38,783 nucleotides of DNA from Acidobacteria bacterium 13_1_20CM_3_53_8 (GTDB taxonomy: Bacteria; Acidobacteriota; Blastocatellia; Pyrinomonadales; Pyrinomonadaceae), in contig MNJR01000144.1 of NCBI GenBank assembly GCA_001920415.1, positions 1 to 38,783 of the forward strand, written 5' to 3'. The position numbers and the translations under genes are program-made. Positions 9,527 to 31,366 of the stretch are shown one piece after another. The notes below the pieces were generated by a model. The model was not told the DNA's origin. It searched no databases and saw only the letters and a list, made by a program, of their open reading frames with translations. Every line of letters begins with the position of its first letter. The first letter of the stretch is position 1.

Positions 9527-9844
9527 ATGCGAAAAATCTTAGCGCTTATTGCCTTGCTTGCCGTCGCGGCTTTTTGGACGGGATGCTCGACAACGGAAAA
9601 CGCAAATAATGCGAACATGGGCGGGACGACGAACACCAGCACAACGACGGGTAACACCACAACAACGACAACCACGACGACCAACACAACGACCGGTCAG
9701 TCCGGCAATACCGGCATGGGGGCCAACGCTGGCAACACCCACATGGGCAACACCGGGGCTGGCAATACACACACGGGCAACACTGGGGCGGCCAACACCC
9801 ACGCGGGCAACACCGCTGCGGGTAACACGCACAACCGTAACTGA
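9527..9844 (+). CDS. Small lipoprotein with Thr/Asn tract and GNT pentapeptide repeats
   Basis: The 105-residue protein begins with a signal peptide (MRKILALIALLAVAAFWTGC) ending in a lipobox-like WTGC, so Cys20 is probably lipidated. A poly-Thr/Asn tract follows (about 30-60). Then come about eight copies of a five-residue unit with consensus (A/M/T)-G-N-T-(H/G), with His in alternate units. No family is recognised. An AGGAG ribosome-binding site lies 8 nt before the ATG. The composition suggests an extended, surface-exposed or periplasmic low-complexity chain; alternate histidines could bind metal, but that is speculation. A clear terminator follows the gene. Confidence 0.75.
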   Translation: MRKILALIALLAVAAFWTGCSTTENANNANMGGTTNTSTTTGNTTTTTTTTTNTTTGQSGNTGMGANAGNTHMGNTGAGNTHTGNTGAANTHAGNTAAGNTHNRN

Positions 9845-10865: not shown

Positions 10866-11026
10866 AAGCTATTTCAAAACCTCTTAGCGAGCTTATCTCT
10901 TATCTTTGCTTCAGAGAGCGTGAACCCTCAATTATCATCAATCTTGAGCTTAGAGAAAATTGCATGTTCTCGCAAAGGCGCAAAGGGAAATGCTTAAGCT
11001 CGCAAAGAGGATTTTGAAATAAGCTT
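10866..11026. repeat. Family B inverted repeat, copy 1
   Basis: The outer arms 10866-10895 and 10995-11026 pair with a few mismatches; the right arm contains GCTCGCAAAGAGG. A CGCAAAGGCGCAAAG segment at 10971-10985 matches the right half of the other two copies (13143-13274 and 23720-23852), but its left partner is degraded. It lies between two convergent genes, rnd and the DUF255 gene. Confidence 0.8.
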
Positions 11027-13142: not shown

Positions 13143-13274
13143 AACCTCTTTGCGAGCTTATCTCTTATCTTTGCGCCTTTGCGTGAACCATCAATTCTCT
13201 TATCACTTAAGATTGATGCTAATTGATGGTTCACGCAAAGGCGCAAAGGGAAATGCTTAAGCCCGCTAAGGGTT
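13143..13274. repeat. Family B inverted repeat, copy 2 (best preserved)
   Basis: The inner arms 13170-13196 and 13221-13247 are exact reverse complements over 27 bp, reading TTTGCGCCTTTGCG then a unique part ending TCAATT. The outer arms (AACCTCTTTGCGAGCTTA against TAAGCCCGCTAAGGGTT) pair imperfectly. The loop is 24 nt. It lies in the divergent gap between the DUF255 gene and the ETF-QO gene, so a terminator role is unlikely for this copy. Confidence 0.92.
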
Positions 13275-13492
13275 GAACTGTTGTCCCAAATTGCCTCTAA
13301 ATAATTTACTGCATTTTAACCTGTAATCGCACCGAAACCTAATGGCAATAAGAGGGACTGATTGCGATTGCGCTTGGCCGCCAGCGCGTTTCGACTAACT
13401 CGATTCTCATCTGTTATACTTTCTGACTGAATACTCATTCATTTTTCATACTTTCAGAGTTCTACTATTTTTGTTGAGGGAGCTTAATAGCT
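13275..13492 (+). other. Upstream region of the ETF-QO gene
   Basis: No gene is seen. A TATACT at 13415-13420 could be a -10 element, with only a weak -35 (TTCGAC at 13390, 19-bp spacing). A GAGGGAG motif at about 13475 is a plausible ribosome-binding site for the GTG at 13493. Confidence 0.35.
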
Positions 13493-19754: not shown

Positions 19755-19879
19755 GGCGAAGAAGAAGAAAGTAAAAAGGCAAAAGGTAAAAGGCAAAAGG
19801 AAGGCTGAAACCACTTTTAATAAAAAGATTGGCTTCCCCTAACTTTTGCCTTTTGCCTTTTACCTTTTGCCTTCTTCGC
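19755..19879. repeat. Heptamer-arm inverted repeat (GGCAAAA/GGTAAAA units)
   Basis: Left arm units at about 19755-19800 (AAAGGCAAAAGGTAAAAGGC) mirror 19842-19879, with a loop of about 40 nt. GGCGAAGAAG/CTTCTTCGCC closes the base. It lies in the divergent gap between the ABC exporter and the response regulator, so it cannot be a simple terminator there. Confidence 0.88.
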
Positions 19880-22439: not shown

Positions 22440-22592
22440 ATGGGAATGTGGATAATCGCGGGCGCGCTCTTTCTTGTCTGGTTAATAGGCGTGCTCACAG
22501 GGCGCGGCGGCTTCATACACATCCTGCTTCTCTGCGCACTCACTGTCGCCATAGTTCAATTCGTAGCAGACCGCAGAGCCGCACGCGGCTGA
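22440..22592 (+). CDS. 50-residue membrane protein, lmo0937/DUF5670-like
   Basis: This short frame encodes MGMWIIAGALFLVWLIGVLT, a GRGG turn, and IHILLLCALTVAIVQFVADRR. Two hydrophobic segments around a Gly-rich turn and the IHILL second helix match the small lmo0937-family membrane proteins found widely in bacteria, whose function is unknown. The composition and turn support a real gene, although the ribosome-binding site is weak. It lies 83 nt after the beta-propeller gene and before a nested hairpin element. Confidence 0.75.
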   Translation: MGMWIIAGALFLVWLIGVLTGRGGFIHILLLCALTVAIVQFVADRRAARG

Positions 22593-22636
22593 ATCTTTTG
22601 TTAACCAATCTAGAGCGAATTACGATTGCATGTACA

Positions 22637-22791
22637 GGTCAGTACCGCCTGCTTAAGCTGGGCGGGTCTGTTAGCAAAGTCAAAAGTAAAAAGGTAAAAG
22701 TAAAAAGTGAGAAGAAGCCAATCTTTTTATTTTCCTTTTGCCTTTTTACTTTTGACTTCTTCACCCGCCCGCTACCGCAGGCGGTACTGAC
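22637..22791. repeat. Nested repeat: heptamer hairpin inside a family C inverted repeat
   Basis: The outer arms 22637-22667 and 22763-22791 are family C (compare 2093-2188 and 31271-31366). The right arm is intact, but the left carries a changed centre (CTTAAGCTG in place of the GGTAGC stretch). Inside, units of the GTAAAAA/GGTAAAA type at 22676-22707 are mirrored at about 22723-22762, starting and ending with AAGTCAAAAGT/ACTTTTGACTT. The heptamer element occupies exactly the loop of the family C element. Confidence 0.88.
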
Positions 22792-22838
22792 TGTGCTGCT
22801 CCCGTACACTGATCTGTAATTCGCTCTAAGGAGACTTT

Positions 22839-23294
22839 ATGGCAAATTCCAAATCGCAGCGTGAAGCAGAGGTCTGGATTCGTGAGCAGTGGTTGCCAGA
22901 TGAATTCGGACAGCCATTCCTGAAGAAGAAGCTGCAACTGCGTTCAGGAGGTAAATTCGAGTTTGATGGGGTTAGTCAGGACGAACGTATAGCGGTTTCT
23001 ATCTCTACAAACTGCGGTATCAGGAGCAGCGGCAAGAAGGCGACGCCTAAGCTGCACAAGATACGATCCGATGCTCTGTTCCTTCTTCTTCTGGACAATG
23101 TAGAGCGTCGTGTCATTGTCTTCTCCGACCGCTATATGTTCGATTTGTGCGAAGCAGAAATTAAGAATGGACGTTTTCCCATTGAAGTTGAAATAAAGCT
23201 CGCGTCGCTGCCCGCCGAGTTAGAGAGCGCCTTGGTGCAAGCACGCTGTATCGCGGCGCAAGAGGTATCTCCGACTGGGAATTTTCGTGGTTAA
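22839..23294 (+). CDS. Conserved hypothetical protein, possible PD-(D/E)XK-like core
   Basis: The 151-residue cytosolic protein follows a strong AAGGAG ribosome-binding site. It has no signal peptide. A segment GGKFEFDGVSQDERIAVSIST (about 37-57) followed by KIRSDALFLLLLD and RRVIVFSDRYMFD looks like the strand pattern of PD-(D/E)XK nuclease folds: an acidic residue in FEFD, then a beta strand where the E-x-K is expected. Here that strand reads AVSIS rather than E-x-K, so activity is doubtful. I do recall similar stand-alone proteins annotated as hypothetical. The gene converges on the lipoprotein at 23299-23673 with only 4 nt between stops. Confidence 0.7.
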   Translation: MANSKSQREAEVWIREQWLPDEFGQPFLKKKLQLRSGGKFEFDGVSQDERIAVSISTNCGIRSSGKKATPKLHKIRSDALFLLLLDNVERRVIVFSDRYMFDLCEAEIKNGRFPIEVEIKLASLPAELESALVQARCIAAQEVSPTGNFRG

Positions 23295-23719: not shown

Positions 23720-23852
23720 AACCACCTTTGCGAGCTTTGCTCTTTTCTTTGCGCCTTTGCGAGAAACAGCAATTCTCTTAACACTCAAGGCTCATGTGAA
23801 TTGATGGTTCACGCAAAGGCGCAAAGTAAAATGCTTAAGCTCGCTAAGGGTT
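23720..23852. repeat. Family B inverted repeat, copy 3
   Basis: The left half (23720-23774: CTTTGCGAGC, then TTTGCGCCTTTGCG) mirrors the right half (23799-23852: ACGCAAAGGCGCAAAG, then GCTTAAGCTCGCTAAGGG). Compared with copy 2 the left arm has a substitution block (GAGAAACAGC in place of GTGAACCATC), so the inner stem is interrupted. It lies in a divergent gap. Confidence 0.88.
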
Positions 23853-24148
23853 GAGCAATTGCCATAGGTGTTGAAATAGCTGCTGCGACCTGCACAGTAA
23901 TAGGCGAAGTCTTAATGGAAATCAAGAGGAATAGATAGATTTTTCTCGTGGTTGACATTCGCTCGCTATGGTTCACGCTCCGTAAAGCTGTAAAATTTAA
24001 CGCTGAAGGCTTGATTATCCTGTTAACCTTCGGCAACATTTGTCTTCGATGCTGGCATCAATAGAAGCGTCGGAGATTGAAAAAGCGCTTTTCGCCCTAA
24101 AACTCTCCCGTCTCTTTTCGTTAATGACAATTCAGAAGGAGCTATCGT
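23853..24148. other. 296-nt upstream region of the OmpA-like gene, no gene seen
   Basis: No coding frame or clear RNA structure is visible. The last bases hold AAGGAG at about 24137, a good ribosome-binding site for the ATG at 24149. The divergent lipoprotein promoter would lie on the far side of the family B repeat. Confidence 0.5.
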
Positions 24149-31270: not shown

Positions 31271-31366
31271 GGTCAGTACCGCCTGCGGTAGCGGGCGGGT
31301 ATTGTTTTAATTTATCTGTCGAGTCATAAACATTACACCCGCCCGCTACCGCAGGCGGTACTGACC
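31271..31366. repeat. Family C inverted repeat, copy 3 (perfect)
   Basis: Positions 31271-31300 and 31337-31366 are exact complements over 30 bp, with a 36-nt loop. The arm is the same as at 2093-2121. It lies between the O-methyltransferase and threonylcarbamoyl-AMP synthase genes. Confidence 0.94.

Follow-up and report, generated by a model that had tools for sequence, protein, structure and literature searches.

A family C REPIN with a heptamer hairpin in its loop was found in the 38,783-nt stretch of DNA analyzed here (the window), which is contig C142 of a 6.10-Mb genome assembly. This composite has spread as a unit through the genome, and the window site holds a travelling pair rather than a fresh insertion. 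The history that we regard as likely is that of a REPIN that took up a passenger: one copy of an independent dispersed heptamer-hairpin element would have entered the spacer of one family C doublet and lost half of its centre, after which the composite would have been copied, edge to edge of its REP arms, to at least 15 places in the genome (window copy included), settling partly inside TA-ended MITE-like frames and partly outside them. The derived deletion of the passenger can be traced and serves as a natural tag by which one captured copy may be followed through the genome, and with such a tag the limits of transposase cargo become measurable. The composite bears on the cargo tolerance of REPINs and on the way in which gene-free repeats such as heptamer hairpins travel in genomes.

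Architecture of the locus and of the family C doublet

The nested inverted repeats are located between a 50-codon ORF (22440-22592) and an ORF at 22839 and comprise, from the outside inward, a TAGAGCGAATTAC pair (22611-22828), a family C pair (22638-22791), and a heptamer hairpin (22677-22758). The left REP arm (22638-22667, forward strand, 30 nt, foot GTCAG) is of the TTAAGCT variant and the right REP arm (22763-22791, reverse strand) is of the common GGTAGCG form. Between them lie, all on the forward strand, a junction CTGTTAGCA of the REP arm and the heptamer arm that is common to most main-type composites (22668-22676), a left heptamer arm of AAAAGTA/AAAAGGT units (22677-22705), a centre AGTGAGAAGAAGCCAATCTTTTTA with approximate boundaries (22706-22729) in a derived form without the GGTTTC half, and a right heptamer arm (22730-22758) that is the complement of the left one. 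The complementarity of the two heptamer arms is 93%. DNA folding of the 231-nt region gives -69.9 kcal/mol against a shuffle mean of -23.8 (z = -14.7; none of 200 shuffles equal), the single-stranded DNA prediction being a single long hairpin. These data confirm the proposal of the earlier note that a heptamer hairpin occupies the loop of a family C element. Its suggestion that the left arm had lost part of its sequence proved wrong, since this arm (CTGCTTAAGCTGGGC) is one base longer than the common arm (CTGCGGTAGCGGGC) and represents a variant with 16 copies in the genome, present on both simple and composite copies (including the simple doublet L078).

The outermost layer, which the earlier note did not include, pairs TAGAGCGAATTAC (22611-22623, forward strand) with GTAATTCGCTCTA (22816-22828, reverse strand) and is possibly a TA-ended MITE-like frame. 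It is the weakest layer (flank score 13, just below the 99% null level of 14) and is rare in the genome, with three exact matches, two of them its own, and 7 + 8 matches at one mismatch versus 8 + 1 in controls; 67 nt of its right side recur on contig C140 at 97%. A possible ribosome site AGGAG (22829-22833) abuts this repeat. The ORF just 3' of the element (22839-23294, forward strand), which is of unassigned family, was sought in 96 other genomes and found in one, from another family, as a distant relative at 38% identity, and no orthologous empty site was found among them. A search of the window against Rfam at gathering thresholds gave no match, and a search for promoter and terminator consensus sequences around the element gave 0 and 2 matches, respectively (shuffle averages 0.6 and 0.8), none of which lies within the element.

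Family C is a REP doublet, in which a variable spacer separates two inverted REP hairpins whose foot is GTCAG. Roughly 150 doublets are present in the genome by arm counts, and the arm start GTCAGTACCGCCTGC has 153 + 163 genome matches at up to two mismatches versus 9 + 12 for the reversed pattern. Folded alone, the common 29-nt arm forms an 8-bp hairpin preceded by an unpaired foot (z = -3.3), and the TTAAGCT arm folds less well (z = -2.1). As in REPINs, two inverted REPs make up one over-represented hairpin, in which the arms are near-constant and the spacers variable, with total lengths of 72-75 nt and 91-96 nt and many different loops; doublets with hairpin passengers total 139-185 nt. Two simple family C REPINs without a heptamer hairpin are located in the window itself (2093-2188, 96 nt; 31272-31365, 94 nt). 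Only a minority of REPINs have passengers: none of the 15 intact doublets on C1 and in most of C24 holds a heptamer hairpin, and these contigs have one one-armed copy besides (L027, at C1:185413). In four simple REPINs (L082:14568, L089:224, L068:6063, and L086:270) one half of the spacer, ATTGTGCG, is common to all and the other half varies, which would fit an exchange of half-loops.

Simple REPINs and composites also occupy an identical position within TIR2 frames, whose ends are terminal inverted repeats that end in TA and are dispersed in the genome (28 + 29 matches, control 0). The starts of the facing TAGGAGTTACGCAGTTGA ends in the listed TIR2 frames are separated by 116 nt or more; the TIR2 pairs examined contain a REPIN at one constant internal place, a REPIN-free frame not being seen among them.

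Dispersal of the composite and history of its passenger

With the element as query, near-full copies at 83-97% identity were found in its own genome. The 154-nt composite has 11 other full-length sites, three one-armed copies (L018 and L022, which are cut at contig ends, and L024, which lies 0.1-0.2 kb from one), and a REP-less remnant (L019), in an assembly that is fragmented into 155 contigs and in which repeats of 150 nt, near read length, can be misjoined. When the 12 full main-type composites (window included) were aligned, the terminal 29 nt were 90-96% identical between copies and directly at the REP edge flank identity dropped to 21-37% (10-nt bins), as was also the case for seven of them taken separately (L010 and six that lie outside the TIR2 frame). 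Recurrence at many sites with such sharp edges at the REP ends suggests that the window composite most likely came as a unit. Considering that the TIR2 frame is present on at least one side of six of the 12 composites and absent in the other six, the REPIN, and not the TIR2 frame, is the common unit.

The heptamer element also occurs without REPs. Its centre GAAGCCAATCTTTTTATT has 73 genome matches at up to three mismatches versus two in controls, and one REP-free copy with the undeleted centre is located in the window (19776-19873, reverse strand). In a comparison covering 49 copies of the 73 matches, with a motif list fixed after the sequences had been seen, all 33 REP-free copies have the full centre with its GGTTTC-type half and lack the upstream AGAA, whereas all 15 REP-borne copies, as well as the remnant L019, lack the GGTTTC-type half and have AGAA. 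A derived centre in all REP-borne copies would be expected from a single capture with copying afterwards. The order put forward in the earlier note, in which the family C frame came first and the heptamer element was captured later, is thus supported for the presumed ancestor of the composite by the two forms of the centre. One further copy with a single REP arm (L028:601-760) has a CTGTTAGCAAAG junction and part of the undeleted centre, and could be an intermediate or a chimera.

Other REPINs have other passengers. Some of these are further GTAAAAA types with different centres (L023 and L026; L030, L034, L035, and L041; as well as L033, L205, L206, and the one-armed L207); a GGATGAG-type hairpin is found in L101, with a single arm in L095, and L102 has one of the GGATTTT type. 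Among the 119 genomes of the family, searched at E ≤1e-15, the composite was found at full length only in its own genome and as a diverged copy in G012, and its heptamer part alone in G030 and G010. The copy in G012 (L053, 74%) is a diverged REPIN with a heptamer hairpin inside, and a full-length match in G005 that is weaker than this cut-off (L229, 69%) is a REPIN with foot GTCAGAACC and also a heptamer hairpin inside; G012 and G005 represent two other genera. The junction pattern has 27 matches in its own genome versus one in the control, and in the 96 other genomes it gave no signal (0-8 matches each, controls 0-12).

The RAYT-type transposase and related systems

One gene of the genome encodes a RAYT-type Y1 transposase; it is located on contig C23 with family C doublets on both sides, an arrangement typical of REP-RAYT systems, in which a Y1 gene is flanked by inverted REPs of one family. 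No GTCAGNACC was found within 1.5 kb on each side of the other three Y1 loci. The C23 RAYT retains the HUH, W-A, and Y----Q motifs, of which H95, H97, Y156, and Q161 are invariant in nine aligned RAYTs, and scores 25.8 against Pfam Y1_Tnp (cut-off 23). A sequence search of solved structures with this protein, up to E = 1, gave no match. It was matched in 34 of 97 genomes, its own included, and its named relatives are mostly from Pyrinomonadaceae and other Acidobacteria MAGs. The foot GTCAG[AT]ACC is located at most 250 nt from RAYT in 15 of 18 loci, its own included, these being taken from 30 loci with L113 (at a contig edge) and L123-L133 omitted. In the named collection, where 35 of 39 loci were counted (four partial matches, L169-L172, omitted), the foot is near RAYT in 9 of 10 loci at ≥67% identity, 10 of 12 at 59-66%, and 1 of 13 below; overall, 19 of the 22 loci with 59-82% identity have it and three do not, and 61 foot sites were counted in 18.5 kb near RAYT versus 18 in 145 kb far from it.

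On the basis of this association between transposase and REPs, the C23 RAYT would be the enzyme that moves the composite, and it is probably by acting on single-stranded hairpins that it spreads it; insertions into loops may survive because both REP hairpins stay intact. Against this reading speak a score of 25.6 bits against NCBIfam NF047646 (REP-associated tyrosine transposase), below the cut-off of 80, the negative search of solved structures, the single foot-bearing locus among the 13 RAYTs below 59% identity, and the three of 22 loci above this identity that do not have the foot. Considering that the family C foot is GTCAG and not the 5' foot GT[AG]G of REP-RAYT systems, this system behaves like one of them yet falls outside the GTAG family. 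At the position of the CnGA foot, CAGT is found in family C and CAGA in many relatives.

Heptamer repeats of the cyanobacterial type are known as STRRs, and nested small repeats in cyanobacteria were reportedly described by Elhai in 2008. In the published accounts of REPIN/RAYT systems, REP doublets are units with less conserved spacers and RAYT genes lie between inverted REPs (PMC3116915, Bertels and Rainey 2011; PMC2817692, Nunvar 2010). The present system resembles those described there in its inverted REP pair, less conserved spacer, hairpin, many copies, and Y1 gene flanked by REPs of the same family, and differs from them in its GTCAG foot in place of GT[AG]G and in that some of its spacers contain a second dispersed hairpin element in full. 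For the class 3 TnpA_Y1 of Acidobacteria and Planctomycetes, PMC6006769 gives a HUH, W[TA], and Y----Q signature, a CnGA foot, and high-copy flanking structures (about 600 in Solibacter). HUH and Y----Q are found here too, a likeness by signature, and the CAGA foot of many relatives fits CnGA; however, family C has CAGT instead of CnGA and forms a clear inverted doublet. REP dimers in TA-ended palindromes are known from A. variabilis (GTAG-15) and H. neapolitanus (CGTC-1), and REP-free target palindromes were not found there (PMC3733652). REP dimers are likewise located in TA-ended palindromes in the present genome, and the listed TIR2 pairs are all too long to be REP-free, but the sequences are different and family C has further repeat hairpins both inside and outside.

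As to foreign DNA within REP units, IS1397, ISKpn1, and IS621 are insertion sequences that target REPs (PMC1525189). They are full IS elements, whereas the family C passenger is a short gene-free hairpin copied onward with its REPIN. The heptamer repeats of cyanobacteria and others, as outlined in PMC4679880, are tandem 7-nt units and mostly intergenic; the repeats studied here are like them in unit type and intergenic position, but they form hairpin arms and occur in Acidobacteriota. REP candidates in Acidobacteriota, including Chloracidobacterium, have also been tabulated (PMC12306157). REPINs and their variable spacers are already published, as are REP dimers within palindromes. The literature searched, which included few subscription papers, gave no report of a dispersed repeat hairpin that is copied further as the passenger of a REPIN.

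Nested palindromes and alternative routes to the composite

Both nesting orders exist in this genome, and as a general rule the family C-first order of the earlier note does not hold. At L082:9895-10149, the heptamer element found in the composite, here with its full centre, encloses a TA-ended frame that holds a simple REPIN; L068:17418 is similar, with a MITE-framed REPIN inside a heptamer hairpin, and at L078:6697 a MITE-framed REPIN is found inside another, weakly periodic repeat hairpin. Hairpins are abundant, with 142 in 385,902 bases (one per 2.7 kb), 124 of them mostly outside ORFs, and heptamer periodicity (lag-7 identity ≥0.62) was detected in 77 of the 142. In L064-L083 (C1 and C24) and the window, hairpins of 7-nt units belong to many unrelated families (AGTTTTC, GGATTTT, AGTCTGG, GTGATAA, GGATGAG, and GGTAAAT), some hairpins are made of 8- or 10-nt units, and some appear by eye to begin at stop codons (uncounted). 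Four nested palindromes are present at L016:613-751 and its flanks, namely a GGGGAAAA-type hairpin, a TIR2 frame, a REPIN, and a heptamer hairpin.

We tentatively consider a wider reading in which loops are a shared habitat of repeats: heptamer hairpins, REPINs, and TA-ended MITE-like frames would insert into one another in either order and to as many as four levels (L016), with insertion targeting, or surviving only in, single-stranded loops, and a filled REPIN would still move with its passenger. If this is true, RAYT systems would be small vehicles for arbitrary hairpin cargo, not movers of fixed short units. A rival explanation, in which loops are active targets, new hairpin elements being drawn to hairpins that extrude as single strands, and in which the insertion step rather than survival of loop insertions drives nesting, strikes us as doubtful. 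Both nesting orders and the REPINs with heptamer hairpins in two other genera (L053 and L229) agree with it, as does a further outer palindrome above 99% of mismatched flank pairs in 9 of 54 REPIN loci (known frames trimmed). When the frames were left in place, 12 of 18 loci lay above the 99% level of the shuffles but just one of 18 above the harsher mismatched-pair level (99% = 46), a null that shared frames inflate. Framed loci lie in a further palindrome in 8 of 29 cases, compared with a loop share of about 7.3% of non-ORF bases (crude ORF caller), giving P ~0.0009, a rough value because the loci were gathered through REP/TIR patterns and arm insertions were uncounted. The AT-richness of loops and the TA ends of the frames also speak against active targeting.

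It is rather unlikely that the REPIN at the window site was a simple one whose loop was replaced by that of a composite, through gene conversion or recombination across near-identical REP arms. The arms are indeed nearly identical among copies, the TTAAGCT and GGTAGCG types occur with various loops, and half-loops recur in different combinations; moreover, L020 and L021 have an inverted interior, and L017, which is symmetrised, has the CTGTTAGC junction at both sides, rearranged interiors which indicate that exchange between arms also happens. However, the composites outside TIR2 (L012, L013, L014, L020, and L021) have unrelated flanks up to the REP edges, and movement of the REPIN would thus be needed anyway, unless simple REPINs had been there first.

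Very improbable is a local insertion, as the earlier note had it, in which a simple family C element stood at the window site and the heptamer hairpin entered its loop, even though a related outer arm at L025 (97%, query positions 148-214) encloses a simple REPIN and REPINs of both kinds, simple and composite, are found in TIR2 frames. Copies of the composite are scattered through the genome and end at the REP edges, and the derived centre of the window copy is also that of 14 other REP-borne copies, whereas separate insertions out of the REP-free pool would not have this centre in common; insertion at the window site was therefore rejected. Growth of the heptamer arms in place within the REPIN loop by slippage is scarcely credible. 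For the main type, slippage was rejected as the sole origin of the hairpin because a dispersed element with about 70 copies has this centre, so that the loop is not where the hairpin first arose. Slippage explains only the number of units, the whole 7-nt units by which composites L015 and L016 differ being consistent with slippage inside the arms.

Beside the passenger-carrying REPIN, the window contains other repeats. Another dispersed inverted-repeat family (CTTTGCGCCTTTGCG...) is located at 10918-11007, 13148-13283, and 23726-23861, two of its copies being 86% alike over 136 nt and the third 72-78% over 90 nt. Direct repeats of 46 nt (GCTGGCAACACCCACA...) occur three times at 9728-9833 with a spacing of 30 nt and overlap with ORFs.
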